Assembly (NCBI GenBank): GCA_947568835.1
Contig: OX387610.1
Coordinates: forward strand, 684,501-748,500
DNA length: 64,000 nt
Origin: Protonemura montana
Lineage: Eukaryota > Arthropoda > Insecta > Plecoptera > Nemouridae
Direction of reading: 5' to 3'
Position 1 is the stretch's first letter. Each line of letters opens with the position of its first letter. Shown piece after piece: positions 1 to 53,300 of this stretch. The notes beneath the pieces are model-generated. The model worked only from the letters and a program-made list of their open reading frames with translations, was not told where the DNA came from and searched no databases. Both the position numbers and the translations under genes were made by a program.

Positions 1-2667
1 CGCAGGTGCTTCCTGCCGGTCCCAAGATGGTCTTTGCAGGACCGCTGCGACTTGTCGAACTCTTCTCCGACTTCAAAGTGAGGTTAGAAGTCTACACGTT
101 GCAATCCAGACGCGAGGTGCTGTCCCACGATGCTAAGTACCACATCGCTGGCAAGAAGGTGAGTTGGCAACAGTGTCACGATCTCAATACCCAGCTGATG
201 TTAGCACGGATCTATCCGTTTGAACTTTTATAGAATATGTTTTAACAAATCTGTTTTACATATGCTCATATATTCAAGTAGAGAATTGAATTAGCTTTCA
301 GATGAGCTCTCCCGGAACTCTGTAGCTGTCCACCAAGTGGTACATATTATAATATATTCAAGTAGAGAATTGAATTAGCTTTCAGATGAGCTCTCCTGGA
401 ACTCTGTAGCTGTCCACCAAGTGGTACATATTATTATATATTCAAGTAGAGAATTGAATTAGCTTTCAGATGAGCTCTCCTGGAACTCTGTAGCTGTCCA
501 CCAAGTGGTATATATTATTATATATTCAAGTAGAGAATTGAATTAGCTTTCAGATGAGCTCTCCTGGAACTCTGTAGCCATCCACCAAGTGGTACATATT
601 ATTATATATTCAAGTAGAGAATAGCAAGTAGAGGCCACCAGTTTGTACCACACCAATCTTCCGAGATTGTGTTCCGATATCGTCTCTCCATGGAAACACA
701 CAGTGTAATCTGTAATCTGATTGGTTGAACAGGATAAGGGCCGACTGACTCCCAAAAAGCGAGCTGAGTCAAGGCTGCTGATGCCCGCGGTGGAAAGTCC
801 TGGAGGACCCAACGCTGTTCGTGGAACTTCATTTACAATGGTCGGCTTTGTTGTCTTCTCATTGGCTGAACTTCGACGCACAAGCTTCACTTTAAACACA
901 GTACGTACACGGCTTAACATTGCCAAGCTTAACATTGCCAGGCTTTACATTGCCAGGCTAACATTGCCATGAAGTAATTTATTTATTGATTTCTAACTTA
1001 GGTACAAGTATACCGGTGGTTAGTGCTAGTAGGCAATCTGGCCTATACTAGTTCCTAGGTCTAAGGTGTATTTTTATTTATTGATTTATTGATTTCTAAC
1101 TTAGGTACAAGTATACCGGTGGTTAGTGCTAGTAGGCAATCTGGCCTATGCTAGTTCCTAGGTCTAAGGTGTATTTTTATTTATTTATTTATTGATTTCT
1201 AACTTAGGTACAAGTATACCGGTGGTTAGTGCTAGTAGGCAATCTGGCCTATACTAGTTCCTAGGTCTAAGGTGTATTTTTATTTATTTATTTATTGATT
1301 TCTAACTTAGGTACAAGTATACGGGTGGTTAGTGCTAGTAGGCAATCTGCCCTATGCTGGTTCCTAGGTCTGAGGTGTATTTTTATTTATTTATTTATTG
1401 ATTTCTAACTTAGGTACAAGTATACGGGTGGTTAGTGCTAGTAGGCAATCTGCCCTATGCTAGTTCCTAGGTCTAAGGTGTATTTTTATTTATTTATTTA
1501 TTGATTTCTAACTTAGGTACAAGTATACCGGTGGTTAGTGCTAGTAGGCAATCTGCCCTATGCTGGTTCCTAGGTCTGAGGTGTATTTTTATTTATTTAT
1601 TTATTTATTTCTAACTTAGGTACAAGTATACGGGTGGTTAGTGCTAGTAGGCAATCTGGCCTATGCTAGTTCCTAGGTCCAAGGTGTATTTATATTTGTT
1701 TTATCAACAGGTGAGTCCTTGTTCTCCGCTAGAAGGTCACATTGGAGTCCGCGTTGAAAGTCAGCTGAGTTCTGCGATCGTCCACCGAGGTTTCCTCACC
1801 GCGTTCCAGGACGTCTCCGGATTCGGAGCCTGGCATCGTCGCTGGTGTCTCCTGCAGGGCACGGCGCTCTCATTCTGGAAGTATCCTGACGATGAAAGAA
1901 CCAAGGTAAGTCTGTGCCATGAGATCTGTCAGTGTATTGTACTTCAGTACCTATCACAACATGGTAATTGTATGGATCGTAATACCATGACGTTGTCTCA
2001 GGTGCCCCTGGATTGCATCGAACTCAACGCTTGTGAGTCAACGTCTGCCGAGCTGGTATCACGTCAAGTCTGCGCTCGACCGAACACAATCTTGCTGGAG
2101 ACGAGTCGAGATGCTTTGCCTGGCGACCAGCCTTCGTTGGTCCTCGTAAACAAGGGCAACCGTACTGTGCTCAGGTAAGTTCTGTGCTGGACACGTTGGG
2201 CTGTCTTTGTTAACTTGGTTCCAGTGACTTCCTGATTATACTCTCGGAGATACAGGGATTGAAACACTGTTGTTTATTTGGAGTTGATAAACTTTAAAAA
2301 TGTCTTTGAGTGAAATATGTCTTTACTAAATTCAACATTAAAGGGAGACCATTTTTACAATAATCATAAAATATTAATTAACAAAAGAAAAAGAGTTCTC
2401 CGACTTTTATCATCAGAAAGATTGATTCGAGGGGAACGCTATCACATTTCTGTGACCGGGAACTTTGATTAATAACCTTGTTCTGAGAATGATACATGTT
2501 GTGCACCAGGTTCACCCTCCACTGCCTGGTAGGCTTGTTGCTGATCTTGTCCTTGTATTTGTAGACATCTACTCTCGGCCGACACGAAGGAGGACCGAGT
2601 TCAGTGGTGCCAACAAATCAATCAGTCGTTGCGTATGCTCCGAGCCTGGACCAACGCAGCAGAATGA
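1..2667 (+). CDS. ANLN: Anillin, C-terminal part (AH and PH domains), 5' end outside window
   Basis: Scaffold protein of the cytokinetic ring that links actin, septins, RhoA and the membrane. Five exons are visible: to 158 (starting at 6 if the CAG at 3-5 is an acceptor), 733-900, 1711-1905, 2002-2174 and 2565-2667, ending in TGA. Phases join in one frame and give about 263 residues. The last exons spell the anillin PH domain: RGFLTAFQDVSGFGAWHRRW, then the PDDER loop, CARPNT, and a terminal helix after LLSADTKED. The upstream exons match the anillin-homology region (SDFKVRLEVYTL, ESPGGPNAVR). The family is much longer, so the N-terminal myosin- and actin-binding half lies left of the window. 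Introns 1 and 2 carry separate minisatellites. AATAAA is at 2828-2833. Confidence 0.93.
265..625. repeat. 83-84 bp minisatellite in anillin intron 1
   Basis: About four to five tandem copies of an 83-84 bp unit, recognised by ATATTCAAGTAGAGAATTGA recurring at 271, 354, 438, 522 and 606. Copies are nearly identical. The array ends about 110 bp before the acceptor at 731-732. Confidence 0.95.
970..1700. repeat. 103 bp minisatellite filling anillin intron 2
   Basis: Seven copies at an exact 103-bp spacing (GGTACAAGTATAC near 1001, 1104, 1207, 1310, 1413 and on). Each unit holds a TTTATT-rich stretch followed by CTAACTTAG then GTACAAGT, so it contains a branchpoint/acceptor-like string next to a donor-like string. 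The array runs from just after the exon ending at 900 almost to the acceptor at 1710. Confidence 0.95.
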
Positions 2668-2827
2668 AGCCTTGCTTTGTCTTTACCCTCGTTTCACAAA
2701 CATAACCTATCTCTAACCTACTGAACATGGATTTATTTCTTATATCTTTATTATGTGTATATATGTGTTGCTTTTGAGAATTATTAGATTGATTAACAAT
2801 TTGCTGCTAGTTTTGGAAATAACTTAA

Positions 2828-2833
2828 AATAAA
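2828..2833 (+). terminator. Poly(A) signal of anillin
   Basis: AATAAA lies 161 bp after the anillin stop codon on the same strand, in AT-rich sequence. Confidence 0.7.
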
Positions 2834-2879
2834 GAAATAATATTTACAATTTTACTAATGTCTGTTTTTCTGGTGAGTT

Positions 2880-4310
2880 ATGATAAAGGCAGAACAAATT
2901 CAAATTCATAGAAGACCCGCGACGGGTGTCAACAGGGGTAGAATTTCAAGGGGAGTTGAATGCAACCCTCTGTTTCAACCTGCGATGGAAACTTACCTCG
3001 TTTTTCTTGATTTTCTTTTCATAATTCCCCGAGTTCTTCGTCTCCCAACGCCTGGGCTATAGACATGACTTAAGCACACACGTGTATGATGGGTGGCCTA
3101 CCCATCAGGATTCACTGCTACATGGGATTAATTTTTTTAGTGGAAACTCAAGTGAAGGATTTTGACCCGCAAGGGGTGTCAACAGGGGTAGATTTTCCAG
3201 GGGAGTTTAATGCAACCACCCGTTTTTGTCTCAGATTAATATTAAGGGAGTTATTCAAGTTTTAATGTTTTAAATCAAGATAGCGGCTAAAGTATGATGT
3301 TTACGCAAAATATAAATAGCCCATCGTGTTCAGGGGTGCAAACTACCCCTAAGGCCTCAGTATGAGTGAATCTTCAAAAATCAAGGAAAAACGTAAGGGG
3401 GTAGTCCAGTGATTTTTCAATAATTTTTTAGTGGAAATTAAAGTGATAGAATTTGACCCGCGAGGGGTGTCAACAGGAGTAGAATTTCAAGAAAAGATGA
3501 AAATCAGCCACCCGTTTTTATCTCAGATTAATATTAAGGGAGTTCTAATAGTTTTAATGTTTAAAATGAAGATAGCAGCTAAAGTATGATGTTCACGCAA
3601 AATCTAAATAGCCCATCGTGTTCAGGGGTGCAAACTACCCCTTAGACCACAGTATGGGCGAATCTTCAAAAATCAAGAAAAAACGTAAGGGGGTAGTCCA
3701 TAGATTTTTTCAATATTTGCATTGCATATTCGAGTGACGGATTTTGGCCCACGAGGGGTGTCAACAGGGGAAGAATTTTAAGGGGAGTTGAATGCATCAA
3801 CCCGTTTTTATCTCAGATTAATATTCAGGGAGTTATTCTAGTTCTAATGTTTAAAATCAAGATAGCAACTTAAGTATGATGTTTACGCGAAATCTAAATA
3901 GCCCATCGTGTTCGGGGGTGCAAACTACCCTTTAGACCACAGTATGAGCGAATCTTCAAAAATCAAGAAAAAACGTAAGATCCATAGATTTTTTCAATAT
4001 TTGCATTGCATATTCGAGTGACGGAATTTGACCCGCGAGGGGTGTCAACAGGGGTAGAATTTCAAGGGGAGTTGAATGCACCCCCCTGTTTGAACCTGCG
4101 ATGGAAACTTACCTCGTTTTTCTTGATTTTCTTTTCATAATTCCCCGAGTTCATCGACTCCCAACGCCTGGGCTATAGACATGACTTAAGCGCACACGTG
4201 TATGATGGGTGGCCTACCCATCAGGATTCACTGCTACATGGGATTAATTTTTTGAGTGGAAATTCAAGTGAAGGATTTTGACCCGCAAGGGGTGTCAACA
4301 GGGACTGCTA
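2880..4310. repeat. Complex tandem block, units of about 250 and 290 bp
   Basis: The string GACCCGCGAGGGGTGTCAAC, or a close variant, recurs at 2914, 3164, 3455, 3746, 4030 and 4280. The spacings are 250, 291, 291, 284 and 250, so two outer units of one type flank three inner units of another. The outer units (2914-3164 and 4030-4280) are near copies of each other. No coding potential is seen. The block sits between the anillin 3' end and the tRNA-like cluster. Confidence 0.9.
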
Positions 4311-4319
4311 CATGGGATT

Positions 4320-5345
4320 GATAAATATCTTGTTTTATTTACTTCCTGCAAAAGATACAAGACAATGGAACGGAGGAGGAACGAGGCCGGGTTCGTATCC
4401 CGCTTGATGCACTATTTTGAACTAAGAAACAATCACCTACCAAGATTGTTAGAGTATTGTCTTGCAACTCTCGCTATTGTTCATAGCGTCCGTTTGGCGG
4501 CGAGTGAAGATCGCTCTCGTGCCCAGCTCCAGGATGCAGAGGGTCGCTGGTTCGAATCAGGTAAGTCACGTGTCTGTATGATACTGCAGAATATGCTTCA
4601 ATCTTTACAGATACAACTTTCACCTCCTCTCCATGATGTACTGAGATCTCCATCAGCTGATATACAAGTACATGTTATTTCCTGCTCACATTACATGGTC
4701 TCGGTGGTAGATTGGTTAGGTCACTTGTATGTGTGGTTCCGTCAGGGAAGTCTGAGTTCGATTCCCGCTCGGTCCACTTTTTGTTCTTCATCAAGTGGTG
4801 ACTGACATTATTATTTTTATTACACTGAAGTCGCTATTCATGTCTCTCTTATTTCGCATAACTTCCCAGCTAGTCACGGTGGCTGATTGAAAAAGTCGCT
4901 TCTCTGCCTGTTATTACTGACGAGACCGGGTTCGAACCCCGTCGATTCCGATTTTTGTTCTTCAAAAAGTAGCAACAGTAATTTGTTCTGAGTGACAGAT
5001 TGCATCATGTGTTTTATAACAAATCGATCGAATGGTATGCGTCTTTATAGCACAGTGGGATGGTTGGGAGATTCAATGCGTGGGGTCCGCAGTTCGCTTC
5101 CCGGCGCCTCCAAGTTTTGTTCATCAGAGTCCTCCACGTGGTACATACTTCAAGTGAAGGGATGGGGAGAGTAGATCCGAATTATAATTTTGAAGTTTTT
5201 TTTACTAAGTCCAAAAACAAAGGCATATATACAACTTCCACCACTCAATTGTTATCAGAGCAGCGTGGCTCAATGGTAACGTGCTAGCTTCGTAGCTGGG
5301 TCAGGAATTATATTCCTTGGTTCGAATCCGGCTAAAATCTACGTT
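4320..5345 (+). other. Cluster of six degenerate tRNA-like sequences
   Basis: Six strings matching or close to the Pol III B box GGTTCGANTCC occur on the + strand at 4390, 4549, 4755, 4929, 5091 and 5319, spaced about 160-230 bp apart. Four have an A-box-like string 36-53 bp upstream (about 4705, 4880, 5055 and 5266), the distance found in tRNAs and tRNA-derived SINEs. Copies 3, 4 and 5 run into the same tail, T(4-5)GTTCTTCA or GTTCATCA. Acceptor stems do not pair well and the heads differ from one another. They are best read as old tRNA-derived SINE units or decayed tRNAs, not working tRNA genes. Copy 6 has a hairpin in the variable-arm position (AGGAAT/ATTCCT). Confidence 0.6.
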
Positions 5346-5363
5346 TTGGAAGCGCCTAGGGAC

Positions 5364-5365
<2 letters not shown>

Positions 5366-5425
<60 letters not shown>
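5366..5425. repeat. Homopolymer of 60 T
   Basis: An uninterrupted run of 60 T directly after the tRNA-like cluster. On the minus strand it could be the poly(A) tail of a retroposed sequence. The exact length may be affected by assembly. Confidence 0.95.
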
Positions 5426-5427
<2 letters not shown>

Positions 5428-5560
5428 GAACAGGAAAAGGGGTCAGTGTTTTTCGGAATACAAAGAACTGATAAAGCAAAAATTTGTTTTTATTGTTAGT
5501 CGTGGAAATACATTTCATTATCACAGGTAGCAACAAAGTCACATTTGCAAAAAACTACTT

Positions 5561-5840
5561 TCAACAGGGTTTTGAATGCTAAGTGAAGAACAACTGAATT
5601 TCCCAACGTTTCGTAACTTGTACCTGTTACTTTATCAAGGGTGACTCTTACGGGCACTCTTATAGCAGTCCTGACATTTCTCTGATAACAAAAAGAACTA
5701 CAAAAATATAAACAATTGCTTTTACTTATTACCCTAATTACCCTAACAATTACTGTAAACGTTGACAAAATTAGTTGTTCTTTGCTGAGCATTAAAAAAC
5801 CAGTTGAAAAGAGTTTTCTCAAAACTGGTACGAAAGTTCT
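5561..5840. mobile_element. Penelope-like element 3'-end fragment, inverted pair
   Basis: This matches the dispersed repeat that forms the 3' end of the Penelope-like element at 18050-21290. A long antisense part is at about 5561-5700, and a short diverged inverted part is at about 5765-5835. The conserved core ACGTTTCGTAACTTGTACC is present. It is an old fragment with no coding capacity. Confidence 0.75.
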
Positions 5841-5885
5841 TATCTGAATCCAAGCAACGATCCAACACAAACAACCATCTCAAGT

Positions 5886-8800
5886 TCAGAACAGAACACA
5901 AAACAGATTCCAGACAGCCCTGGAAACTATTGGGTCGCTACGTCCAATAAACAAAATCAAAATAAGTTTTACATTCCAGTTGACCGGTGCTTTTGATTGG
6001 AGGAAGCTAAAAAACAGCTGACAGTTTCCGGACATCTCGGTCCCAGTGACATTTTGCTTCTTATCCTGCAGTTGTTTAATTCCTAACAACAATTATATTG
6101 TCGCATATAACTCTGCATGTTTTTGCTGATGCCGAGAATCGATCACTGTGAAAAAATAAAAACCTTGCTTTTCTCCCCGAGGGACGGAAAGTGGACAAAG
6201 ATTGCTGGTCTTGCGTTGACGTAGATTGATGTTTCCCGAGTCAAGTTCTCCTTCCGTTGGGTGCAGTGGGTCGACTTCCACGGCCAAGAGGAGAGGGAAC
6301 GCCAACCTGCAAAATAAGTGAAACATTTAGACATGTCAGGATAGCCAACTGTGCCAGACTGGCAAGCTAGCAGGTGGCAATGCTGGTTGTTTCATTATTG
6401 GGATTCAACATAGCTCTTACTTTTACATAGCTCCTTACTCTTGTACGGTATTATAATTTGGGGAGGGCCGGCACGCATGAAACGCCTATTCACCTTGCAA
6501 AAGCGTGCCATTCGGTACATGTCCTATGCCAGTTCGAACCCTTGTGCAACGGTGACACATGCAAGGACACATGCAAGCCTTTATTTAAGAAACTTTTAAT
6601 CATGACATCACCTTGCTTGTATATATATTCCTTTATTTTATTCAAGACTAAGAACAGTAACATGACAAAGATGAATGAAACCGTCCACCAACATAACACA
6701 AGGATAAAGAAAGACATAAGAATTAACGATGGGTATAAGGCTAGGGCACAACGATCACCTCTGGACTGGGGATCGCGATTTTTCAACGTGTTACCTAACG
6801 CAATGAAAGAGAAGGAAGGTATTACTGGTTTTAAAATATGTATAAAAGAGTACCATTAACAGAGCATTGTTTTTACTCAGTAAAAGAATTTTTAATATTT
6901 AAGGTTGCTAGTGCATAAGATGGAAACAACTATATTTTATGCGAATGTAAATGCTACATGTTTATTGAATAATTTATTGTATTTTATTGTATTTATTGAA
7001 TTGTTAATATTTTAAGTGTATTTTCATATGTAACATGACATGTCCATATCAATGTTTGATCAATCGGACAACAATAAATAAATATACAAAATATACTGTT
7101 TTGACAACAATCCATGGGGCACTGGTCTAATGGCGTCGGTGAATGATGATGAACCTAACCTAGCCTAGCCTTGAAGGGAAAATGTAACAAAATTAGCGAT
7201 AAAAAAATGTGTCGCTGGCCTTACATCTGGTTCATTTTTCAAAAATCCACTCGCAAATGTCACAGCATGCTCCTCGTCCGGTTAAAACTGGCTAAAAGCC
7301 TGTAAAACATACCTGGCATGCACTCTTATAGGCAGTGCATTCGACTGGACAGTAAGCCTGTAAAACATACCTGGCATGCACTCTTATAGGCAGTGCATTC
7401 GACTGGACAGTAAGCCTGTAAAACATACCTGGCATGCACTCTTATAGGCAGTGCATTCGACTGGACAGTAAGCCTGTAAAACATACCTGGCATGCACTCT
7501 TATAGGCAGTGCATTCGACTGGACAGTAAGCCTGTAAAACATACCTGGCATGCACTCTTATAGGCAGTGCATTCGACTGGACAGTAAGCCTGTAAAACAT
7601 ACCTGACATGCACTCTTTTAGGCAGTGCATTCGACTGGACAGTAAGCCTGTAAAACATACCTGGCATGCACTCTTATAGGCAGTGCATTAGACTGGACAG
7701 TAAGCCTGTAAAGCATACCTGGCATGCACTCTTATAGGCAGTGCATTAGACTGGACAGTAAGCCTGTAAAACATACCTGACATGCACTCTTATAGGCAGT
7801 GCATTCGACTGGACAGTAAGCCTGTAAAACATACCTGACATGCACTCTTATAGGCAGTGCATTCGACTGGACAGTAAGCCTGTAAAACATACCTGGCATG
7901 CACTCTTATAGGCAGTGCATTCGACTGGACAGTAAGCCTGTAAAACATACCTGGCATGCACTCTAATAGGCAGTGCATTCGACTGGACAGTAAGCCTGTA
8001 AAACATACCTGACATGCACTCTTATAGGCAGTGCATTCGACTGGACAGTAAGCCTGTAAAACATACCTGGCATGCACTCTTATAGGCAGTGCATTCGACT
8101 GGACAGTAAGCCTGTAAAACATACCTGGCATGCACTCTTATAGGCAGTGCATTCAACTGGACAGTAAGCCTGTAAAACATACCTGGCATGCACTCTTATA
8201 GGCAGTGCATTGGACTGGACAGTAAGCCTGTAAAACATACCTGGCATGCACTCTTATAGGCAGTGCATTGGACTGGACAGTAAGCATGTAAAACATACCT
8301 GGCATGCACTCTTATAGGCAGTGCATTCGACTGGACAGTAAGCCTGTAAAACATACCTGGCATGCACTCTTATAGGCAGTGCAATCGACTGGACAGTAAG
8401 CCTGTAAAACATACCTGGCATGCACTCTTATAGGCAGTGCATTCGACTGGACAGTAAGCCTGAAAAACATACCTGGCATGCACTCTTATAGGCAGTGCAT
8501 TCAACTGGACAGTAAGCCTGTAAAACATACCTGGCATGCACTCTTATAGGCAGTGCATTAGACTGGACAGTAAGCCTGTAAAACATACCTGACATGCACT
8601 CTTATAGGCAGTGCATTCGACTGGACAGTAAGCCTGTAAAACATACCTGGCATGCACTCTTATAGGCAGTGCATTCGACTGGACTGTAAGCCTGTAAAAC
8701 ATACCTGGCATGCACTCTTATAGGCAGTGCATTCGACTGGACAGTAAGCCTGTAAAACATACCTGGCATGCACTCTTATAGGCAGTGCATTCGACTGGAC

Positions 8801-11800
8801 AGTAAGCCTGTAAAACATACCTGGCATGCACTCTTATAGGCAGTGCATTCAACTGGACAGTAAGCCTGTAAAACATACCTGGCATGCACTCTTATAGGCA
8901 GTGCATTCGACTGGACAGTAAGCCTGTAAAACATACCTGACATGCACTCTTATAGGCAGTGCATTCGACTGGACAGTAAGCCTGTAAAACATACCTGGCA
9001 TGCACTCTTATAGGCAGTGCATTCAACTGGACAGTAAGCCTGTAAAACATACCTGACATGCACTCTTATAGGCAGTGCATTCGACTGGACAGTAAGCCTG
9101 TAAAACATACCTGGCATGCACTCTTATAGGCAGTGCATTCGACTGGACAGTAAGCCTGTAAAACATACCTGACATGCACTCTTAAAGGCAGTGCATTCGA
9201 CTGGACAGTAAGCCTGTAAAACATACCTGGCATGCACTCTTATAGGCAGTGCATTCGACTGGACAGTAAGCCTGTAAAACATACCTGGCATGCACTCTTA
9301 TAGGCAGTGCATTCGACTGGACAGTAAGCCTGTAAAACATACCTGGCATGCACTCTTATAGGCAGTGCATTCGACTGGACAGTAAGCCTGTAAAACATAC
9401 CTGGCATGCACTCTTATAGGCAGTGCATTCGACTGGACAGTAAGCCTGTAAAACATACCTGGCATGCACTCTTATAGGCAGTGCATTCGACTGGACAGTA
9501 AGCCTGTAAAACATACCTGGCATGCACTCTTATAGGCAGTGCATTCAACTGGACAGTAAGCCTGTAAAACATACCTGGCATGCACTCTTATAGGCAGTGC
9601 ATTCGACTGGACAGTAAGCCTGTAAAACCTACCTGGCATGCACTCTTATAGGCAGTGCATTCAACTGGACAGTAAGCCTGTAAAACATACCTGGCATGCA
9701 CTCTTATAGGCAGTGCATTCGACTGGACAGTAAGCCTGTAAAACATACCTGACATGCACTCTTATAGGCAGTGCATTCAACTGGACAGTAAGCCTGTAAA
9801 ACATACCTGGCATGCACTCTTATAGGCAGTGCATTCGACTGGACAGTAAGCCTGTAAAACATACCTGACATGCACTCTTATAGGCAGTGCATTCGACTGG
9901 ACAGTAAGCCTGTAAAACATACCTGGCATGCACTCTTATAGGCAGTGCATTCGACTGGACAGTAAGCCTGTAAAACATACCTGGCATGCACTCTTATAGG
10001 CAGTGCATTCGACTTGACAGTAAGCCTGTAAAACATACCTGGCATGCACTCTTATAGGCAGTGCATTCGACTGGACAGTAAGCCTGTAAAACATACCTGG
10101 CATGCACTCTTATAGGCAGTGCATTCGACTGGACAGTAAGCCTGTAAAACATACCTGGCATGCACTCTTATAGGCAGTGCATTCGACTGGACAGTAAGCC
10201 TGTAAAACATACCTGGCATGCACTCTTATAGGCAGTGCATTCGACTGGACAGTAAGCCTGTAAAACATACCTGGCATGCACTCTTATAGGCAGTGCATTC
10301 GACTGGACAGTAAGCCTGTAAAACATACCTGGCATGCACTCTTATAGGCAGTGCATTCGACTGGACAGTAAGCCTGTAAAACATACCTGACATGCACTCT
10401 TATAGGCAGTGCATTCAACTGGACAGTAAGCCTGTAAAACATACCTGGCATGCACTCTTATAGGCAGTGCATTCGACTGGACAGTAAGCCTGTAAAACAT
10501 ACCTGGCATGCACTCTTATAGGCAGTGCATTCGACTGGACAGTAAGCCTGTAAAACATACCTGACATGCACTCTTATAGGCAGTGCATTCGACTGGACAG
10601 TAAGCCTGTAAAACATACCTGGCATGCACTCTTATAGGCAGTGCATTCGACTGGACAGTAAGACTGTAAAACATACCTGGCATGCACTCTTATAGGCAGT
10701 GCATTCGACTGGACAGTAAGCCTGTAAAACATACCTGGCATGCACTCTTATAGGCAGTGCATTCGACTGGACAGTAAGCCTGTAAAACATACCTGGCATG
10801 CACTCTTATAGGCAGTGCATTCGACTGGACAGTAAGCCTGTAAAACATACCTGGCATGCACTCTTATAGGCAGTGCATTCGACTGGACAGTAAGCCTGTA
10901 AAACATACCTGGCATGCACTCTTATATGCAGTGCATTCGACTGGACAGTAAGCCTGTAAAACATACCTGACATGCACTCTTATAGGCAGTGCATTCGACT
11001 GGACAGTAAGCCTGTAAAACATACCTGGCATGCACTCTTATAGGCAGTGCATTCGACTGGACAGTAAGCCTGTAAAACATACCTGGCATGCACTCTTATA
11101 GGCAGTGCATTCGACTGGACAGTAAGCCTGTAAAACATACCTGGCATGCACTCTTATAGGCAGTGCATTCGACTGGACAGTAAGCCTGTAAAACATACCT
11201 GGCATGCACTCTTATAGGCAGTGCATTCGACTGGACAGTAAGCCTGTAAAACATACCTGGCATGCACTCTTATAGGCAGTGCATTCGACTGGACAGTAAG
11301 CCTGTAAAACATACCTGGCATGCACTCTTATAGGCCGTGCATTCGACTGGACAGTAAGCCTGTAAAACATACCTGGCATGCACTCTTATAGGCAGTGCAT
11401 TCGACTGGACAGTAAGCCTGTAAAACATACCTGGCATGCACTCTTATAGGCAGTGCATTCGACTGGACAGTAAGCCTGTAAAACATACCTGGCATGCACT
11501 CTTATAGGCAGTGCATTCGACTGGACAGTAAGCCTGTAAAACATACCTGGCATGCACTCTTATAGGCAGTGCATTCGACTGGACAGTAAGCCTGTAAAAC
11601 ATACCTGGCATGCACTCTTATAGGCAGTGCATTCGACTGGACAGTAAGCCTGTAAAACATACCTGACATGCACTCTTATAGGCAGTGCATTCGACTGGAC
11701 AGTAAGCCTGTAAAACATACCTGGCATGCACTCTTATAGGCAGTGCATTCGACTGGACAGTAAGCCTGTAAAACATACCTGGCATGCACTCTTATAGGCA

Positions 11801-13588
11801 GTGCATTCGACTGGACAGTAAGCCTGTAAAACATACCTGGCATGCACTCTTATAGGCAGTGCATTCGACTGGACAGTAAGCCTGTAAAACATACCTGACA
11901 TGCACTCTTATAGGCAGTGCATTCGACTGGACAGTAAGCCTGTAAAACATACCTGGCATGCACTCTTATAGGCAGTGCATTAGACTGGACAGTAAGCCTG
12001 TAAAACATACCTGGCATGCACTCTTATAGGCAGTGCATTCGACTGGACAGTAAGCCTGTAAAACATACCTGGCATGCACTCTTATAGGCAGTGCATTCGA
12101 CTGGACAGTAAGCCTGTAAAACATACCTGGCATGCACTCTTATAGGCAGTGCATTCGACTGGACAGTAAGCCTGTAAACATACCTGGCATGCACTCTTAT
12201 AGGCAGTGCATTCGACTGGACAGTAAGCCTGTAAAACATACCTGACATGCACTCTTATAGGCAGTGCATTCGACTGGACAGTAAGCCTGTAAAACATACC
12301 TGGCATGCACTCTTATAGGCAGTGCATTCGACTGGACAGTAAGCCTGTAAAACATACCTGACATGCACTCTTATAGGCAGTGCATTCGACTGGACAGTAA
12401 GCCTGTAAAACATACCTGGCATGCACTCTTATAGGCAGTGCATTCGACTGGACAGTAAGCCTGTAAAACATACCTGGCATGCACTCTTATAGGCAGTGCA
12501 TTCGACTGGACAGTAAGCCTGTAAAACATACCTGGCATGCACTCTTATAGGCAGTGCATTCGACTGAACAGTAAGCCTGTAAAACATACCTGGCATGCAC
12601 TCTTATAGGCAGTGCATTCGACTGGACAGTAAGCCTGTAAAACATACCTGGCATGCACTCTTATAGGCAGTGCATTCGACTGGACAGTAAGCCTGTAAAA
12701 CATACCTGACATGCACTCTTATAGGCAGTGCATTCGACTGGACAGTAAGCCTGTAAAACATACCTGGCATGCACTCTTATAGGCAGTGCATTCGACTGGA
12801 CAGTAAGCCTGTAAAACATACCTGACATGCACTCTTATAGGCAGTGCATTCGACTGGACAGTAAGCCTGTAAAACATACCTGACATGCACTCTTATAGGC
12901 AGTGCATTCGACTGGACAGTAAGCCTGTAAAACATACCTAACATGCACTCTTATAGGCAGTGCATTCGACTGGACAGTAAGCCTGTAAAACATACCTGAC
13001 ATGCACTCTTATAGGCAGTGCATTCGACTGGACAGTAAGCCTGTAAAACATACCTGGCATGCACTCTTAAAGGCAGTGCATTCGACTGGACAGTAAGCCT
13101 GTAAAACATACCTGGCATGCACTCTTATAGGCAGTATACACAAAGGCACTCTTATAGGTAATACAGAACAATGTGTTTATTTAATTAAGGTCCAACTGTT
13201 AATATTTAAACAGTATTTGTCTACAATTAGTTGTAAAATCTATGCTCTAGAAATCCTCCTTGAATTGAGGTGAAAAATAGTGACATTTGTTAAAATATTA
13301 ATATCAAGCATTGCTCTGAATTGCTCACCTTCAGTTGACATGACAAGCTTTGTTGATGGAAACTTTGTCTCTGTTGTTGGTCTTTTACAAGAGCAGGTCT
13401 CCAGCAGCCGTTGACAGCAATCTAGAAGAAAGAATTCATAACTCAGACATCGACAGCTTCTCATTGGTTTCTCATCAGAGCAATTGTATGAACTTCAACT
13501 AACCTTGTGTAAAGTTGTATTCAAAGTGAGTTGGTGGTTCTTGAATCTCTAATGCATCCAACAATGTGTTGCTGTGGCTAGAAGCCAT
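5886..13588 (-). CDS. Unrecognised protein, four-exon model, about 166 residues
   Basis: Not recognised. A start codon in good context (AGGATGG, ATG at 13588) opens exon 13504-13588. It is followed by 13329-13421, 6164-6306 and 5886-6065, which ends in TGA. All four junctions use consensus GT/AG sites (for example TTCTAG and TTTTGCAG acceptors), and the phases 1, 1 and 0 join into one 501-nt frame. The protein begins MASSHSNTLLDALEIQEPPT, has a Cys-rich stretch (DCCQRLLETCSCKRP), and ends with a hydrophobic segment (VKLILILFIG) that could be a membrane anchor. The third exon also has an open second frame, so its assignment is the weakest part. The middle intron holds the 58-bp array and a LINE fragment. 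AATAAA on the minus strand lies near 5490. Confidence 0.4.
6437..7090 (+). mobile_element. LINE 3' fragment (Jockey/CR1-type reverse transcriptase C-terminus)
   Basis: Truncated non-LTR retrotransposon. The sequence from 6437 reads LLYGIIIWGGPARMKRLFTL, then QKRAIRYMSYA, the usual region after the RT core (compare the LFTLQKRA-type motif). The frame then changes, and 6620-6858 reads HNTRIKKDIRINDG... to a stop. It ends in an AATAAATAAATA tail near 7075-7085. It lies in the long intron of the unrecognised minus-strand gene. Confidence 0.8.
7105..7165. repeat. Short dispersed repeat (also inverted at 30620-30690)
   Basis: GGCACTGGTCTAATGGCGTC followed by GATGAACCTAACCTAGCCTAG matches the reverse complement of 30620-30690. 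A related short match (TTAGACCAGTGCCAC) is at 29740. Its class is unknown. Confidence 0.7.
7298..13135. repeat. 58 bp minisatellite, about 100 copies
   Basis: Tandem unit of 58 bp beginning GCCTGTAAAACATACCTGGC and containing TGCACTCTTATAGGCAGTGCA, whose ends (TGCAC/GTGCA) are inverted. The span of 5.84 kb gives about 100 copies. Variation is limited and recurrent: TGGCATG or TGACATG, and ATTCGACT, ATTCAACT, ATTAGACT or ATTGGACT. One unit near 12176 is a base short. One minus-strand frame of the unit has a stop, so the array does not encode a long repeat protein. It lies in an intron of the unrecognised gene. Confidence 0.98.
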
Positions 13589-15478: not shown

Positions 15479-15479
15479 T

Positions 15480-30480: not shown

Positions 30481-30497
30481 CCGGACACTCTTACAAT

Positions 30498-39400: not shown

Positions 39401-42400
39401 TAAGCTTGTGCTTATTGCTATGTCAATTGTGTGTAGTCCCATATGATAACCAAGTTTTAAGATCCTTGTGTGCTATGCTTGTGCTTATTGCTATGTCAAT
39501 TGTGTGCAGTCCCATATGATAACCAAGTTTTAAGATCCTTGTGTGCTATGCTTGTGCTTATTGCTATGTCAATTGTGTGCAGTCCCATATGATAACCAAG
39601 TTTTAAGATCCTTGTGTGCTATGCTTGTGCTTATTGCTATGTCAATTATGTGCAGTCCCATATGATAACCAAGTTTTAAGATCCTTGTGTGCTATGCTTG
39701 TGCTTATTGCTATGTCAATTGTGTGCAGTCCCATATGATAACCAAGTTTTAAGATCCTTGTGTGCTATGCTTGTGCTTATTGCTATGTCAATTGTGTGCA
39801 GTCCCATATGATAACCAAGTTTTAAGATCTGTGTGTGCTATGCTTGTGCTTATTGCTATGTCAATTGTGTGCAGTCCCATATGATAACCAAGTTTTAAGA
39901 TCCTTGTGTGCTATGCTTGTGCTTATTGCTATGTCAAGTGTGTGCAGTCCCATATGATAACCAAGTTTTAAGATCCTTGTGTGCTATGCTTGTGCTTATT
40001 GCTATGTCAATTGTGTGCAGTCCCATATGATAATCAAGTTTTAAGATGCTTGTGCTTATTGCTATGTCAATGACAGCCTACTCCTCCACAAACTACACCA
40101 CATAGGCATCCGTGGCACGGCCAACAAATGGGTCGCCTCCTTCCTCTCAAACCGCTCCCAAGTAGTCAAAATCAACCCCCCATCCCCTGACCAGCCCCCC
40201 GTCCTCTCCACCCCGCTCATAACCAAACAAGGAGTCCCCCAAGGCTCGGTCCTTTCCCCTCTGCTCTTCCTCCTATACATAAACGACCTTCCCCAACTTA
40301 TTACACATGGCACACTCTTCCAGTTTGCTGATGACACTAACCACCTAATCACCATCCCCAAATCCCAGACAGTTACAACCCTATCGCAAACTGCCAACTC
40401 CCAAACCTCAATAATCTCAAACTATTGCCTAAACAACCACCTAGCACTACAGCCAACCAAATCCTCCCTCATCAATTTCCAGACTAAAACCAACCCCCCT
40501 GACTCCTCCCCCCTAATCAGAGTAAATGACCACATAATCCCCACGACCCTCTCAACCAAATTCCTTGGCCTTTACATAACACCCACCCTAGACTGGTCCC
40601 TCCACATTCAAAAATCCCTATCCAAAATCAAAAGCACCTGCTACCTACTGCGCCGTCTTAAACGAATTTCCAACCTCAATACCCTTAAACTCGTATATCA
40701 CGCCCACCTCCACTCCCACCTCTCATATGGGATCCTATTCTGGGGAACATCCCCACAGGCCAAAAGAATCTTCATTGCCCAGAAACAGGCAGTTCGCATA
40801 ATAGCCGGCATCTCCCGCCGAAAGACATGCAAACCCCATTTCATCACCCACAAAATCTTAACCCTCACCTGCACCCTCATTCAAATAGCCAGCACCCTAG
40901 TCCGAACTCATCCCCTTCTCTTCCCCCTGAACTCCTCCATACACACTCATGAAACCAGAAGTAGGAAAGAAATCCGCATCGTCCCACACCTCACCTCCCT
41001 CTTCACACATAGTCCCCCCTACTTATGTACAAAAATATACAACCACCTCCCTACTCACATCAAAGAATCCTCCCAGCACAGCGCCTTCGATTCCTCTCTA
41101 CGAAACTTCCTCATCCAGAACCCCTTCTACAACCTCGAGGAATATCTCGCTACACCAATACACCATGTCCCCCTGGCCCCTCTACAATGAAGTCTAACTA
41201 AACCTAGTCTAAACTTACAGCCTAATTTAAAGCCTAATTAAATACTACCATATAAGTATTAATATTATTATTATTATTACTTTTACTATAAGTACCATTA
41301 CCATCGCTACCATCTCTACGAAGAACTATTGTACAGTTCTAGTCTAAATTGATAGTCTAATGTTTAACTATTTCATTAGTATTAATATAATCACCATATT
41401 ATACCATATTACCATATTACTATATTACCATATACCACATAACTATATTATATAGCTCATACAGATACATTGTACCTGTCCGCAGCAAATAAATAAATAA
41501 AAAAAAAATTGTTTGTTTTGTTTTTGTTTTGTACAGAATTGTGGCCTACCGTGCCATGCGTGTGGAACACGACGTGGAATGGCTCCGCCCCCAACAACGC
41601 GTCCTGAGCCTCAGTTGCCACGACGACGTCGGCGCCGAGCGCCTGAGCGACAGGTGTCGCGCGCAGGCGACAGGTGGCGGTCACGTGACCTCCGTGCAGG
41701 CGAGACAATTGAAGCAAGACACAGCCAACTGGAGAGACGGCGTCACGAACCAAGATCCTGCTTCCAGAGAAACAACACCTTTATGTATATATATATAGTA
41801 TATACAGAACGTCATATTTTCTTTTTGTATCTTTTTCCTACAAATTAAACCAATTTTGACAAATTTTGTACCAATTACCAGAGTCAGATGATGCAGTAAT
41901 GAAGGTGTACCAACACTGTGACAATGATAGATGACATTACAGTGTTGCCAACTCACCGTCTCCCGATGCATGAGTTGGTAAGCCTGGCTCGATGGTGGAA
42001 CGCATCCCACGCCGCGGCGCCTGCGAATGGCAACGCTGCGGCTGTTTCAAAACCAACAGCACGTGGCTTGCGATAGACCTGGCGTTGTCATGACAACATA
42101 ACAATAACAAACATTACGTTATCATGGTTTATAATTCAAATATTCAAAATATTCAAATATTTGGCATTCAAATATATAACCTATTTTTACTGATTTTCTG
42201 ATATGTATAGAAATCCTAAATTGTAGATGAATGAATAAAAATAAATAAAAAAGGAATTTAATTAAATATTTTAAAAACTGATTAAGAAAATGTTTTTCCC
42301 TACAACAAAAAAAATTAATAAACAAAAAAAATTGTAATCATATTTCTCCCTTTGAGCCAAGTCGACCCACCTGTTGCTCCCTCACAACGATGAGTTCCGC

Positions 42401-44496
42401 CAGCGTGCCGGTTGCCCAGGGCGACCGGGCGACCCAGACCTCGTCGCCCGGCAACACACGTGTTACCCGGACACCGGTCTCCATGACGATCCCGGCGCAG
42501 TCCCGGCCCAGCAAGACCGGGAACAAACCCAGCACATTCTGCCCGGACAAAAGACAATTGCATCACTTACGAGATTTAATGTTTTTAGACTCATGATTAC
42601 TTGATGTAAACTTAGCACTAGTTTTAACAAAAACTATTTCAACTGGGTTTTCAATGCTAAGTGTAGAACAACAAAATTTCCCAACGTTTCGTAACTTGTA
42701 CCTGTTACTTTATCAAGGGTAAGAGCAGTCCTGACAATTTTCCAATAACAAAAGAACCACACAAAATTATAACAATTACCAAGTTCAAGCTTCCTAAATG
42801 CATCTAAATAAAATAATCAGGGTCAATAACTTAAAAACTAATGTATTATGTATTTTCTGAAATAAAATCCCGAACAAATTGGCATTTTTTTAGTAACTAA
42901 CCAATTATGTGTATGGAAAAATTGCCAGTTCAACCAGTAGGTACGTACATAAACCCAAGTTCAAATAGTTTGTGTTAAAGTCGATAAATATTTCTAAAAA
43001 GTGCCCAAACATTTGAAATCAGTGCTGACTTGACGCACCTTGTTTCTTTTGTTGAGTTGGTATCTTAGCAACCGTCCGTATCCGGAGCAGATTCGAATGT
43101 CGATCGGGTCAACAGAAGCCGCCTTCACTCTGATCAAAACCTCGTCAGGTCGAGTTATAGAAGGCGCTGGAAAATCCTCAACCAGGCACAGAGCCTAGCA
43201 ACCAAAACAATCAACCTCGTTGCTTAGCAACCAAGAACAACAAATAACTCTGACAGGAGATGATTTCAACAAAATGGAGATTCGATTTGATTTAAACTTA
43301 CGTCCACGCCGTCGTACGAGGTGCAGACGACGGCCTTGACTCGCGCCGGAGATATTGGAGCTCGGCGCCAGCTCAGTCCGACCGAAATCCCGACAGAGAT
43401 CCCGACTGCCAGCCCAACACATCCACAAACAACACCCGCCCTAGCACCTGCAATAATCATATAGGGGTAAAACTTGCACAGATATTCCATCCTTATGAGG
43501 CAAAGACTAGCACAGATAAAGCTTGCACAGATATTCCATCCTTATGAGGCAAAGACTAGCACAGATAAAGCTTGCACAGATATTCCATCCTTATGAGGCA
43601 AAGACTAGCACAGATAAAGCTTGCACAGTATTCCATCCTTATGAGGCAAAGACTACTACAGATAAAGCTTGTACAGATATTATATCCTTATGAGGCAAAG
43701 ACTACCACAGATAAAGCTTGCACAGATATTCCATCCTTATGAGACAAAGACTAGCACAGATAAAGCTTGCACAGATATTCCATCCTTAATGAGGCAAAGA
43801 CTACCACAGATAAAGCTTGCACAGATATTCCATCCTTATGAGGCAAAGACTAGCACAGATAAAGCTTGCACAGATATTCCATCCTTATGAGGCAAAGACT
43901 AACACAGATAAAGCTTGCACAGATATTCCATCCTTATGAGGCAAAGACTAGCACAGATAAAGCTTGCACAGATATTCCATCCTTATGAGGCAAAGACTAG
44001 CACAGATAAAGCTTGCACAGATATTTCATCCTTATGAGGCAAAGACTAGCACAGATAAAGCTTGCACAGATATTTCATCCTTATGAGGCAAAGACTAGCA
44101 CAGATAAAGATTGCACAGATATTCCATCCTTATGAGGCAAAGACTAGCACAGATAAAGCTTGCACAGATATTCCATCCTTATGAGGCAAAGACTAGCACA
44201 GATTTCTGTCACTCACTGTCATGAGCAAGATGTGCCAACACTTGTGCGTAAAGTTGTTGTGAAGCTTCAGCGACGGTGTTGCGAACTTGAGTGGTTGCTA
44301 ACGCAGCACGTTCAGCCGCTTGTGCCACAGCGTCTAAGAAAGCGGCTGCGTGGGGGGAGGCGGCCAGAGCGAGACCCAGCGCTTGCACTCGCTCTGCAAG
44401 CTCGGACAGGGCGGCACGTCCACGCTGTCCACCCAGCGAGACTTGCACTTGCAGAGTCTCCAACTTCTCGGATACATGGAACAGAACCTCGTCCAT
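33431..44496 (-). CDS. RTN4IP1: Reticulon-4-interacting protein 1 homologue (mitochondrial NAD(P)H oxidoreductase)
   Basis: MDR-superfamily quinone oxidoreductase acting in mitochondria. Coding exons: 44217-44496, 43302-43447, 43039-43194, 42371-42538, 41957-42078, 41550-41757, 39111-39254 and 33431-33619. They sum to 1413 nt, or 470 residues, with all phases joining. The start is MDEVLFHVSEKLETLQVQ, a helical N-terminal extension, then a Gly/Val membrane-like segment (GCVGLAVGISVGISVGL). The MDR core follows: KAASVDPIDIRICSGYG, PVLLGRDCAGIVMETGV, PGDEVWVARSPWATGTLAEL, FETAAALPFAGAAAWDAF. The C-terminus is LQPVVDKIYSPRDAELAFQH then IGKTVIRFR. The nucleotide-binding glycine loop is weak (LVRDAVSPVG where the human protein has GASGGVG). 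An upstream in-frame extension from an acceptor near 44559 is possible. Introns 1, 6 and 7 carry minisatellites; intron 6 also holds a LINE. Confidence 0.93.
33640..33762. mobile_element. Foldback element copy with tRNA-like core
   Basis: Arms TTATTATCAACACTAGAACC and GAGACGCTTATAGTG are inverted copies as in 23299-23413. The loop contains GGACTCGAACCCCGATCTCC, the complement of a tRNA B box (GGTTCGAGTCC). It sits directly upstream of the 115-bp repeat at 33757-33873. Confidence 0.7.
33757..33873. repeat. Dispersed repeat, about 115 bp (copy of 16045-16160)
   Basis: Shares GTGTATTTGATGAGAATGAC through CACAACCTGTCAAACTCGAA with the copy in the last DEK intron. Confidence 0.85.
34001..39050. 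repeat. 19 bp G-rich minisatellite, about 265 copies, in RTN4IP1 intron 7
   Basis: The unit is AAGCTGGTATAGGGGGACC, alternating with a GGGGGATC form and rarer GGGGGACT. It is broken about nine times by a longer spacer containing GGAGGTCAACATCTCCATGG and TTACAGCAAGGGTATAAGA (near 35440, 36060, 36765, 37025, 37915, 38175, 38720, 38935 and 39050). The spacers at 36765 and 37025 recur at 37915 and 38175, an offset of about 1150 bp, so a large segment has been duplicated. G runs lie on the + strand, the template strand of the gene. Confidence 0.98.
39404..40068. repeat. 73 bp minisatellite, about 9 copies, in RTN4IP1 intron 6
   Basis: GCTTGTGCTTATTGCTATGT recurs at 39404, 39477, 39550 and so on at 73-bp spacing. 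The array stops in mid-unit where the LINE begins, so the LINE was inserted in or beside it. Confidence 0.96.
40069..41508 (+). mobile_element. 5'-truncated LINE (Jockey/CR1-type reverse transcriptase)
   Basis: The coding part runs open from about 40070 to the stop at 41188. It shows QGSVLSPLLFLLYINDLPQL, FQFADDTNHLI, LGLYITPTLDWSLHI and the C-terminal KQAVRIIAG region. The tail ends in AATAAATAAATA and a run of A at about 41488-41508. The strand is strikingly poor in G and rich in C. It lies in RTN4IP1 intron 6, only about 40 bp from exon 41550-41757. The 5' end, including the endonuclease, is missing. Confidence 0.93.
42575..42930. mobile_element. Penelope-like element 3'-end fragment (antisense)
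   Basis: One of the longest solo copies, extending from TTTTTAGACTCATGATTACT through the core to the CCAATTATGTGTATGGAAAA end, as in 18040-18350. It is inside an RTN4IP1 intron (42539-43038), with the exon edge only about 37 bp away. Confidence 0.9.
43468..44205. repeat. 49 bp minisatellite, about 15 copies, filling RTN4IP1 intron 1
   Basis: The unit contains AGGCAAAGACTAGCACAGAT then AAAGCTTGCACAGATATTCC, 49 bp. The intron is 43448-44216, so the array spans nearly all of it. Minor variation includes CTACCACAG and a one-base insertion near 43788. Confidence 0.97.
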
Positions 44497-45065
44497 CTCC
44501 GCAGTCTCGCGCCCGCGCACTTCACAACCTAGTTTTCCGTAGCATTTCTGCTCGACCCTGTTGAAGCAAAGTCACTTAATGGAGATTAAATTCAGAGTGC
44601 ATATGTCAACGGTCATAGTTAAAAATAAGTTATTGACTTGAACCTAAAAAAAATATTGATGGCCCAATAATATTTTTGTCTGCTGTTACAGATAGAATTT
44701 GTGTGTGTAACTGTAATTCTTTGCGAAATATGTGATGCGTTTCAGAAATCATAATTGGCAGTTGTTTATTACTCAGTTTGTAAATATACGGTTGAAAAGT
44801 AAAAAGTGCAAAATAACCTCCGGGATCTGTGCTTCTTGGATCACAGCTGATCGAAGTGAACAAATATTTGGTTGGTAAATTAGCTACCAGGTAGCGTTAG
44901 CGTTCAGGAATCGGGCGGTTTACAACAGCGCTCGTTTCAACATTTTGCCGTCCTTCTTTCGAACTAAACGGGCATCATCTTGAAGAGGGATATCCGGTTC
45001 AGCGCTGATCAATTTATCTGATCTGTGAATTGATTATCTCGACCAGGGGAAACCAGAATCGAAAC
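44497..45065. promoter_or_regulatory. Divergent region between RTN4IP1 and RPS20
   Basis: About 570 bp between the two start codons. It must contain the RPS20 promoter and 5' UTR and part or all of the RTN4IP1 promoter. A pyrimidine run (GTCCTTCTTTCG at 44951-44962) could be the RPS20 transcription start with a TOP-like tract; this is inference only. Confidence 0.45.
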
Positions 45066-46257: not shown

Positions 46258-46295
46258 AAATCTCGACGAGTGATTTGCCGAGCTGTTGCTCCGGA

Positions 46296-46301
46296 AATAA
46301 A
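46296..46301 (+). terminator. Poly(A) signal of RPS20
   Basis: AATAAA 39 bp after the RPS20 stop codon. Confidence 0.85.
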
Positions 46302-47755: not shown

Positions 47756-47759
47756 TTGG

Positions 47760-49097: not shown

Positions 49098-49099
49098 AA

Positions 49100-50302: not shown

Positions 50303-53300
50303 CTACTTTTTAATAACCTGCAGCAGACAAAACAATATTATTAATATATATTTATTCTCATACTTAGGCTTGGTACATGTTCTTATGCAAGTTCTTAGAG
50401 TAATAGGAAAGTACATTTCTGTTAAATCATGATCGCCGGTTGTATGGTGTCCACGTTAGTGTTACATTAAATTAAATGTAGTAATACAGTGAAGTTATAC
50501 AATGAAATTAGCCAAGTTATTTCAAGTTAGCTACGTTATTTACAGGACTAGTCTTTTGGATTGTTCCGTCTTTGGATTTCTTGTAACCGGCGTCTAAATT
50601 CCTTTGCGTTCTTGGGGAAGTGGGACGTGACCGGGGCATATTAAATATTTAAATGTTAACAGAAATATTGTCAGAGCCATCTGAAAGTCAGGGCTTATAT
50701 TTCATTGGTCTGCACATCATTGTGCCACCTGAATCCGCGTGAGTCAAGCTGGCTTCTTTTTAATAAACAAATAAATAAAAATGCCGTCTCTGTGAAATAT
50801 CTGTGAGTGTATCAACGCTATCGTTCGATGCCGAGCGTGGCAATGTTTTCAGGACGGACAAGAAAGTTGAGTCGAGGGACTCAATGATATCGAGACAGCG
50901 AGAGTTGGGACAGAGTACAACGTGGTGAGAAAGTTGAGTAAGATTCTCCAGGGATTTAATTCAGAACAATGAAAGTTGTGCAAATATTGCCCGTCGTAAA
51001 GATCTAAAGTGTCAGGTCTTCTCATTGCAGGCGAGTCCACCGAACTCTTTAAGATGAAATCTGTATTTAAATTGCAAACGCTTGCAATGCGCAGGGTATT
51101 TTATTATTATCAACACCAGCAACGTCTCAAAAATTGATCCCCGTTTGGACATCAATTTTTGAGACGATTATAGTGTTCATAATAATAAAAGTCCACCAAA
51201 CTCTGGTCTGAACTAGTGAATTTAAATACCTGACAAAATCTGAACATATCAAGATCAAGTTAGGCCTGAATATTTAGGTGATAGCATAGAATCTACTACA
51301 ATTTATTGTGTATAATTCTAAGTTGCTAATAAAACTATTATTATTATTATTATTAACTTCAACATGGTTGTTAGCTGCATAAAGATCAGTAAGAGACAAA
51401 ATGAAGTGACCGTCTGTCAGCATGTGAAGCAAAGTTTGTCCCACCCAACGTTTGAGATGAAGATTCACCTGCAGTGACGAGGGCAAACCTTCCTGTACCT
51501 ATGTACCTATGTACCCATGTACCTATGCACCTATGTACCTATGTACCTATGTACCTATGTACCTATGTACCTATGTACCTATGTACCCATGTACCCATGT
51601 ACCTATGTACCTATGTACCTATGTACCTATGTACCTATGTACCTATGTACCTATGTACCTATGTACCTATGTACCTATGTACCTATGTACCCATGTACCT
51701 ATGTACCTATGTACCTATGTACCTATGCACCTATGTACCTATGTACCTGACCACAGTGCAGCAAATGCACATTTGTAAGAGAAAAATAAATACAAATACC
51801 AACCTAACCTAACAAACGAAGCCAACAAACCTGTAGCACGTCTTCGTCGTGCATCTCGTGGTGGAGTCCCACGCGTTGTGGTGAGTATTTGGTGCTCGTG
51901 CCCCAGACCAGTGCACACTTGAACTCATCGGCCAGCGTACGGTGGATCGCGTGGCAGACGTGTTGCACCGAGACCCCACGTCGCAGAATCAACCCATCCT
52001 GGGGACAAAGTTCATGATGGGACCTCATGTAGTGCTATGCTAATACCGTTGAGTGTAGGTTCTCGGTAGAGAAACAACGTCAATGTTACAGTCTCTGCGT
52101 GAAAGATGGCCGCCAAATGACTACCTTACCGACAAAAATGCAGAGTACCGGAACATCACGTTAAGTGGAGCCACTGTCGTATAAAATTTAATTTCGATAT
52201 TTCTCGTAGGTTAACTCGCTTTTGAATATCGTCATGTGTATATCAATCGTTGAGGTAAACATTGACATTGGAGCATGAAAAGTGTTTGTATGTCTCACCT
52301 GAAAGTCCGGTCCTGCTCCAGGTTTCTTGGTGTAAACCCGGATGAGTGACAGGTATTCCCAGAGCTGCTCCAATAGGAAGTCAAGGTTCAGTCGCATGTT
52401 GCACGAAACAACAAGGCTGTGAGGTTGACGAGCAATCCTGTCAACCTCCTCTAGTGAAACCTGCAACATACAAATATTATTATTAATATTACATTGCTTA
52501 TTGTACAATCTTCTATCCTAATTAAAAAAAAAAAACACATACACATATCAGATGCATCAGATGCATATCTATAGATATAATTACAAATATTATTATTATC
52601 CCTTAAAGGTAAATAGAAGTAGAAAGGGTAGAAGTAGTGGGGCAAATTGTTTGCTGTAGGAAACCATTGCCATTGGTTGGCTGAATCTTCCCCTCCTTGC
52701 CATGTGAGCACCAGCATCACATGCATTCAGTCAATATAGAGATTAGCTGGGATTTCAAATTTCAATGGGGTGTAATAAATCTTTGACTTTTGAGGATCAA
52801 ACAAAGCAACTCTTTGTGAGTGATGGATATATTTTGATGTGTGGAATCTGGAACACCAGACTTGTCTGGGAATGAAAAGACAATCTTGCAAAGTATGTTG
52901 TTAGTACCAGGCAGTGGGTCTAATTCAAATTCTAATGGACATAAACCAGGGACCCGAACCGAAATGATTAAAGGTTCTGGTTCCGGTTCCGGTTCCTAAT
53001 TTTTTCAAATTAGGGTTCTGGTTCTGGTTCCGGTTTTACGTTTTTAAAGGTTCCGGTTTCGGTTCCGGTTCCATATTGTGAAGAGGGGTTCCGGTTCCGG
53101 TTCCGGTTCCTAATTTTCTCAAATAAGGGTTCTGATTCCGGCTTTAAGTATAAAAAGGTTCCGGTTTCACTTGATAAATAAAGCGTTATTTTTTTTTAAT
53201 TTTGCTGTTGTACAGGTTCAAGTTTTAGCGGTTTTTAGTGACACTTAGTTTTGTTTTTCCATCTGCCAGGGACAGGTCTTTTTCCTCACATTGGGTTTCG

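Follow-up and report, generated by a model that had tools for sequence, protein, structure and literature searches.

How tandem repeats come to occupy the introns of host genes, in places from one splice site almost to the other, is the question raised by a stretch of 64,000 bases from the stonefly Protonemura montana (assembly GCA_947568835.1, contig OX387610.1, positions 684,501–748,500; hereafter the window). On an 18-Mb chromosome, the window occupies the interval 0.68–0.75 Mb from one end, its first base being 684 kb away from a contig end with telomere-like repeat. Ten main arrays were found in it by Tandem Repeats Finder (TRF), scoring 468 to 11309 where the threshold is 50. Tandem repeat makes up 27% of the window (17,422/64,000 bases; period of at least 7, score of at least 100). 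An earlier note made from the letters alone had described nine of these arrays, which it placed in introns of six genes, and had read them as a sign of a genome-wide process of local amplification of intron DNA, or of strong tolerance of it. The explanation that we favor, and consider reasonably probable, is that dispersed units are seeded near chromosome ends and grow in place, with introns caught up in the process.

Array Families Concentrate near Chromosome Ends

All nine arrays of the earlier note were recovered by TRF, the first with a unit of 84 bp instead of 83 bp, and a 292-bp array at 3151–4091 was added (Table 1). Nine of the ten units were searched against the genome (258 Mb in 34 contigs, of which eleven large contigs of 13–33 Mb total 247.6 Mb), with the best 40 candidates scored per query. 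Seven of the ten recur at many places, namely those of 103, 73, 114, 49, 58, 84 and 292 bp; for the 114-bp unit there were 1276 first-look candidates genome-wide, the best 40 of the 1276 being scored. The claim that no two arrays share a unit is correct inside the window and wrong for the genome. Outside the window, the 48-bp unit was detected just once, as one copy inside a related element, and the 19-bp unit in one other array, at 69–77% identity, by a search that skips simple repeats. Both units look private to the window as far as such searches reach.

Matches of six families (103, 73, 114, 49, 58 and 84 bp) outside the window were merged by eye into 182 listed sites, with extra pieces of the same array, flank-only matches and the 52-bp family described below left out. 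Of these, 151 lie less than 3 Mb from a contig end, where 27% would be expected. Spot sampling gave a similar picture. Twenty points of 850 bases were taken at coordinates fixed before looking, ten at ~1 Mb from ends and ten in the interior. Arrays were touched by 7/10 near-end samples vs 1/10 interior samples (Fisher p 0.02), and tandem repeats made up 57% and 10% of bases, respectively. Two near-end samples landed in the window's own 49-bp and 73-bp families. The array load of the window is what its position predicts, because chromosome-end samples are already full of tandem repeats. The sole interior sample that is an array (L103, C16:14000001-14000850) consists of 85 copies of TAACCGAACC across all 850 bases.

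One large contig is nearly empty of these families. Contig C16 (29.6 Mb) holds one of the 182 sites, against about 22 expected by length. Even so, the element surrounding the 58-bp array is present there in many copies, and the listed 52-bp sites include one on this contig, at 0.135 Mb. C16 is perhaps a sex chromosome. An AAACC/TTTGG telomere-like repeat was present at two of the three contig ends read, the start of C3 (L106) not being telomeric; the same motif is given for Sitophilus oryzae in the cited part of PMC12134996.

Origins of the Units

Several units could be traced to recognizable parents. Elsewhere in the genome, 92 bp of the 84-bp array recur as 11 inverted pairs, with outer ends 1.9–2.6 kb apart, and as two single copies, on contigs C1, C2, C3 and C4. 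Judged from this arrangement, the pairs are the terminal inverted repeats of a ~2-kb element, presumably a DNA transposon. Eight of fifteen other 84-bp array sites end exactly at the element tip (query position 224, which is 392 minus two units; counted by eye); the window's own 84-bp array does not. The related inverted pairs are not confined to chromosome ends, with 4 of 13 places less than 3 Mb from an end.

A dispersed element borders the 58-bp array on its left. Among the matches listed, 13 of the element's 15 copies outside the window stop 27–44 bp into the unit and two carry the array (by eye). The 58-bp and 292-bp arrays probably belong to a single larger element, because they lie about 2–4 kb apart at 10 of the 19 listed places of 58-bp arrays, the window included (by eye). 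Some 292-bp arrays are paired in inverted orientation, and this is the only family in which an element bounded by arrays on either side was noted, by eye.

Two further families point to RNA polymerase III (Pol III) sequence. A scan of ten loci, picked for holding 52-, 70- or 91-bp arrays, gave matches to transfer RNA (tRNA) and 5S ribosomal RNA (rRNA). Over 53 bp the 52-bp unit matches a tRNA-like sequence of locus L019 (38.4 bits as tRNA) at 98% identity, and an end of a 52-bp array is overlapped by four of the five tRNA matches. In locus L053, a 5S rRNA match (46.4 bits) extends across part of a 91-bp array, taking in the start of the array's unit. Arrays of 52 and 91 bp occur in L019, L025, L035, L053, L059, L060 and others, the listed 52-bp sites lying mostly near contig ends. 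A mir-969 match, below the gathering score, spans inverted copies of a 52-bp array and was set aside as an artefact. A 41-bp tandem unit at L012 (4-548) and at C1:32477752-32478167 is a shortened 114-bp unit (96% over 48 bp), the same sequence with another period.

These parents raise the alternative that the arrays belong to transposons, as internal or terminal segments, and move by ordinary transposition in the manner of foldback or Rehavkus-like elements, whose termini are tandem repeats. The terminal-repeat origin and tip-ending sites of the 84-bp unit, the neighboring 58-bp and 292-bp arrays and the inverted pairs of the latter all favor it. Other families do not behave in this way: 73-bp and 114-bp arrays lack a common flank or a fixed end, and 103-bp arrays share just a short 3' flank, at four of seven sites. 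Target-site duplication was sought as a direct repeat of at least 6 bp at array edges and was found in 0/45 arrays. We consider transposition unlikely as the general explanation, and unlikely for the 73-bp and 114-bp families in particular.

Insertion and Growth of Arrays

In the 73-bp and 114-bp families, flanks and the phase of the unit at array ends vary from site to site. Complete arrays tend to hold near-whole numbers of units, with 32 of 42 within 0.2 of a whole number in the 103-, 73-, 114- and 52-bp families (Rayleigh p 7e-5, on copy-number fractions from TRF values rounded to 0.1). Such a bias is compatible with a small circle that was opened, or with a permuted unit that was duplicated in place.

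The units themselves bear the trace that seeding by a shared unit followed by local growth would leave, a master with private variants. One master unit accounts for 225/477 units of the 73-bp family and is present in 18/18 loci; unit divergence is 1.75% within loci and 1.82% between them. Among the other multi-copy types of this family, 32/53 are private to one locus, compared with 2.0 in shuffles. The commonest 114-bp type is found in 13/16 loci and 14/21 other multi-copy types are private (0.8 in shuffles). In the 103-bp family 6/9 multi-copy types are private (0.6 in shuffles). Identical stretches of up to 508 bp between 73-family loci are accounted for by the high frequency of a single unit type. 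Copying of long blocks between loci was considered and rejected, the order of variant units not being shared beyond shuffles in the 73-bp and 114-bp families.

Growth from a single copy can be followed for the 48-bp array. A paralogous element at C13:15.232 Mb has 48+5 bp where the window has 25 units, and this copy shows the state of the array before growth.

Purely local amplification, with each intron growing its own sequence and introns as the target, draws on this precursor, on the near-private 19-bp unit and on the predominance of locus-private variants. It does not explain why seven of the ten units are found at many other places, with differing flanks where these were read, or why arrays crowd the spot samples near chromosome ends. 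Local amplification alone is refuted for the 103-, 73-, 114-, 49-, 58-, 84- and 292-bp units; it is the best reading for the 48-bp array and perhaps for the 19-bp array. As an account of the window as a whole we regard it as improbable. What stands of the proposal that intron DNA is amplified locally is the growth, seen in the 48-bp precursor and the locus-multiplied 73-bp variants; the process is not intron-specific, and most of the arrays are of families concentrated near chromosome ends.

Arrays in Introns

Five host genes carry eight of the ten window arrays in their introns: anillin (84 and 103 bp), DEK (114 bp), eIF2-alpha (48 bp), RTN4IP1 (49, 73 and 19 bp) and DRG2 (8 bp). The count of six genes was one too high. 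The 58-bp array lies outside host genes, and the gene described as unrecognized (open reading frame (ORF) 4272–4802) had no Pfam match and is dispersed, which makes it a repeat and not a host gene. Nine of the eleven large contigs have matches to positions 4304–6417 of the window, at about 67–95% identity. By splice-site reading, the arrays said to make up nearly the whole intron in DEK and RTN4IP1 do so, at 97% and 96% of intron length.

A preference of arrays for introns is not clear in the window by count or by density. About half of the window falls within host gene spans, where tandem repeats account for about 31% of bases, vs 22% outside. Splice-like signals were scored around arrays with thresholds set after a first look at the data. 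Donor-like sites (7 bits) were found no more than 60 nucleotides (nt) upstream of arrays in 19/122 cases vs 7.7% at random positions; acceptor-like sites (8 bits) downstream were hardly in excess (9/122 vs 5.9%). A comparison of orientations is a cleaner test. In 52 complete arrays outside the window, the intron-like arrangement (donors up to 40 nt upstream, acceptors up to 40 nt downstream) prevailed over the reversed one by 19 sites to 6 (one-sided p 0.007). Over six settings p ranged from 0.007 to 0.10 for these arrays, weakest at the laxest threshold, from 0.004 to 0.04 for all 60 arrays, and from 0.017 to 0.18 for the 35 arrays of the 73-, 114- and 103-bp families outside the window. It is modestly supported that arrays sit just inside introns beyond expectation; tolerance and targeting are not separable by these data. 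Several stretches upstream of arrays look, by eye, like coding exons.

Introner-like elements, whose insertion would have created the introns and brought the splice sites, would suit the two introns that are 96–97% array with 33–39 nt remaining and the intron-like orientation of nearby sites, and are very improbable and were rejected, given that splice sites lie outside the arrays at variable distance, that edge phase varies, that target-site duplications are missing and that many arrays lack a strong splice-like pair in their vicinity.

Proposed Mechanism and Its Weight

Chromosome-end seeding followed by growth in place builds on computed results: the families and their location, the origins of the 84-, 52- and 91-bp units and partly of the 58-bp unit, the missing duplications, the master-plus-private pattern of the 73-bp family and the 48-bp precursor. 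Short pieces of mobile elements or of Pol III sequences would give rise to master units. Seeds of these units would be inserted at new sites, mostly less than ~3 Mb from chromosome ends, without clear target-site duplications and in variable phase. The carrier of the seeds, we infer, would most likely be small DNA circles. Sproul and others reportedly described in 2020 the dispersal of Drosophila satellites by circles. Each seed would then be amplified in place, presumably through unequal exchange or slippage. Introns of the end zone would be hit or tolerated because splicing needs just ~10 nt at the donor and 20–30 nt at the acceptor, and an array may come to fill an intron that would still be spliced normally.

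Several observations weigh against this account. Taken by itself, the 114-bp family does not show the whole-number bias (7/15), and in-place duplication without circles could also account for the bias. The commonest 103-bp unit type is found at only 1/7 loci, which gives no evidence of a shared master in this family. Four of the seven 103-bp arrays have 21–86 bp of 3' flank in common, and the 84-bp arrays mentioned above stop at the transposon tip; in these two families part of the spread took place with an element or from an array end, and circles do not explain all of it. Long-block copying is not supported by unit order, though seeding and growth do not require it. The genome sampling is also small, at 20 points of 850 bases.

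In a wider version of the proposal, fragments of mobile elements and Pol III genes would be seeded genome-wide as circles, planted preferentially by splice sites in short introns and mostly near chromosome ends, and would grow there, with C16 shielded. We entertain this version only tentatively.

Seeding and growth near chromosome ends would join in one genome three usually separate questions: where units originate, how arrays spread and how much of an intron repeat can replace. With many arrays that have recognizable parents, a shared master and private variants, satellite birth by seeding and then growing becomes directly testable. Genes near chromosome ends may have highly variable introns.

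Relation to Known Systems

The TCAST repeats of Tribolium castaneum are scattered in euchromatic gene regions, over-represented in introns (families pooled) and rare in exons, and extrachromosomal circles have been proposed as their carriers, according to the cited parts of PMC5844308. The stonefly units resemble TCAST as satellite-type units scattered in gene regions, introns included. They differ from the preferentially single repeats described there in forming arrays of several to over 100 units, near chromosome ends, some of which fill introns.

Satellites derived from transposon termini are represented by Tetris/TIR-220 in Drosophila virilis (PMC4079207) and by TCsat23 in Rehavkus-1_TC of Tribolium (PMC10218199), as described in the cited sections. 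The 84-bp unit is like these in corresponding to an element's terminal inverted repeat, with arrays ending at the tip. In contrast to them, the 84-bp arrays are confined towards chromosome ends and the inverted-repeat pairs are not. Crassostrea gigas has many satellite families in short arrays across its chromosome arms, tied to mobile elements (PMC10048060, PMC8268682). The oyster satellites are unclustered and go with Helitrons, whereas the stonefly arrays cluster near chromosome ends. The CeRep25B minisatellite of C. elegans has a 24-bp unit, lies in introns in 75% of cases and in chromosomal clusters, and has a proposed effect on splicing, in the portion of PMC4039745 used here. It shares the intronic position and chromosomal clusters with the stonefly arrays, and differs in being one family of a single 24-bp unit with that proposed effect.

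No description of a chromosome-end array zone of this kind was found in listings of open-licence papers, which is weak evidence. To the known systems the stonefly genome adds the concentration near chromosome ends, the whole-intron arrays and the nearly empty chromosome, and the stonefly arrays are an extreme variant of dispersed satellites of the Tribolium type.

Features of the Window

The host genes were identified mostly by Pfam domains. In anillin a PH domain lies in the exon after the array intron, and the Anillin domain is below cut-off. DEK has DEK_C, eIF2-alpha has S1 and EIF_2_alpha, and DRG2 has MMR_HSR1, MMR_HSR1_Xtn and TGS. RTN4IP1 was named through a match to PDB entry 2vn8, and has ADH_N and, below cut-off, ADH_zinc_N. 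The tails of RTN4IP1 and DRG2 were located by tblastn with human sequences as queries. RTN4IP1 exons at about 41577 and 33604 flank the 19-bp and 73-bp arrays.

Table 1. Arrays, introns and dispersed repeat in the window (window coordinates).
Feature	Position	Strand	Details
Anillin intron	159..1710	+	Donor GTGAGT at 159, acceptor CAACAG ending at 1710; holds 84-bp and 103-bp arrays
84-bp array	257..622	+	TRF, 4.4 units; anillin intron
103-bp array	977..1701	+	TRF, 7.0 units; anillin intron; ends 9 nt before exon; family near chromosome ends
292-bp array	3151..4091	+	TRF, 3.3 units; dispersed family; adjoins dispersed repeat 4304–6417
Dispersed repeat	4304..6417	+	Genome matches; contains most of supposed unrecognized gene (ORF 4272–4802)
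58-bp array	7296..13135	+	TRF, 100.7 units; left flank a dispersed element; outside any host gene
DEK intron	21608..22904	-	1297 nt, 97% 114-bp array; 7 nt and 32 nt remain
114-bp array	21640..22897	-	TRF, 11 units; DEK intron; dispersed family
eIF2-alpha intron	27956-30294	+	48-bp array 446 and 693 nt away from splice sites
48-bp array	28402..29601	+	25 units; within dispersed element in eIF2-alpha intron
19-bp array	34001..39047	+	TRF, 267 units; between RTN4IP1 exons; seemingly private
73-bp array	39393..40054	+	TRF, 9.1 units; abuts reverse-transcriptase ORF; between RTN4IP1 exons; dispersed family
RTN4IP1 intron	43448..44216	-	769 nt, 96% 49-bp array; 13 nt and 20 nt remain
49-bp array	43468-44203		TRF; RTN4IP1 intron
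Last DRG2 intron	donor 51830, last exon near 50318	-	Holds 8-bp array
8-bp array	51494..51748	-	TRF, 31.9 units; last DRG2 intron

No known structured RNA was matched within the window at the Rfam gathering threshold. The window contains at least six copies of a dispersed ~200-bp element, some in each orientation (18060–18267, 28056–28243, 30048–30265, 32644–32837, 42625–42842 and 55571–55758). Pfam matches identified two reverse-transcriptase ORFs and one ribonuclease H ORF at 40045–41187, 47695–48930 and 61062–62303. A pair of ORFs at 18552–19810, the first with no Pfam match, has what we take to be a resemblance to Penelope-like elements.

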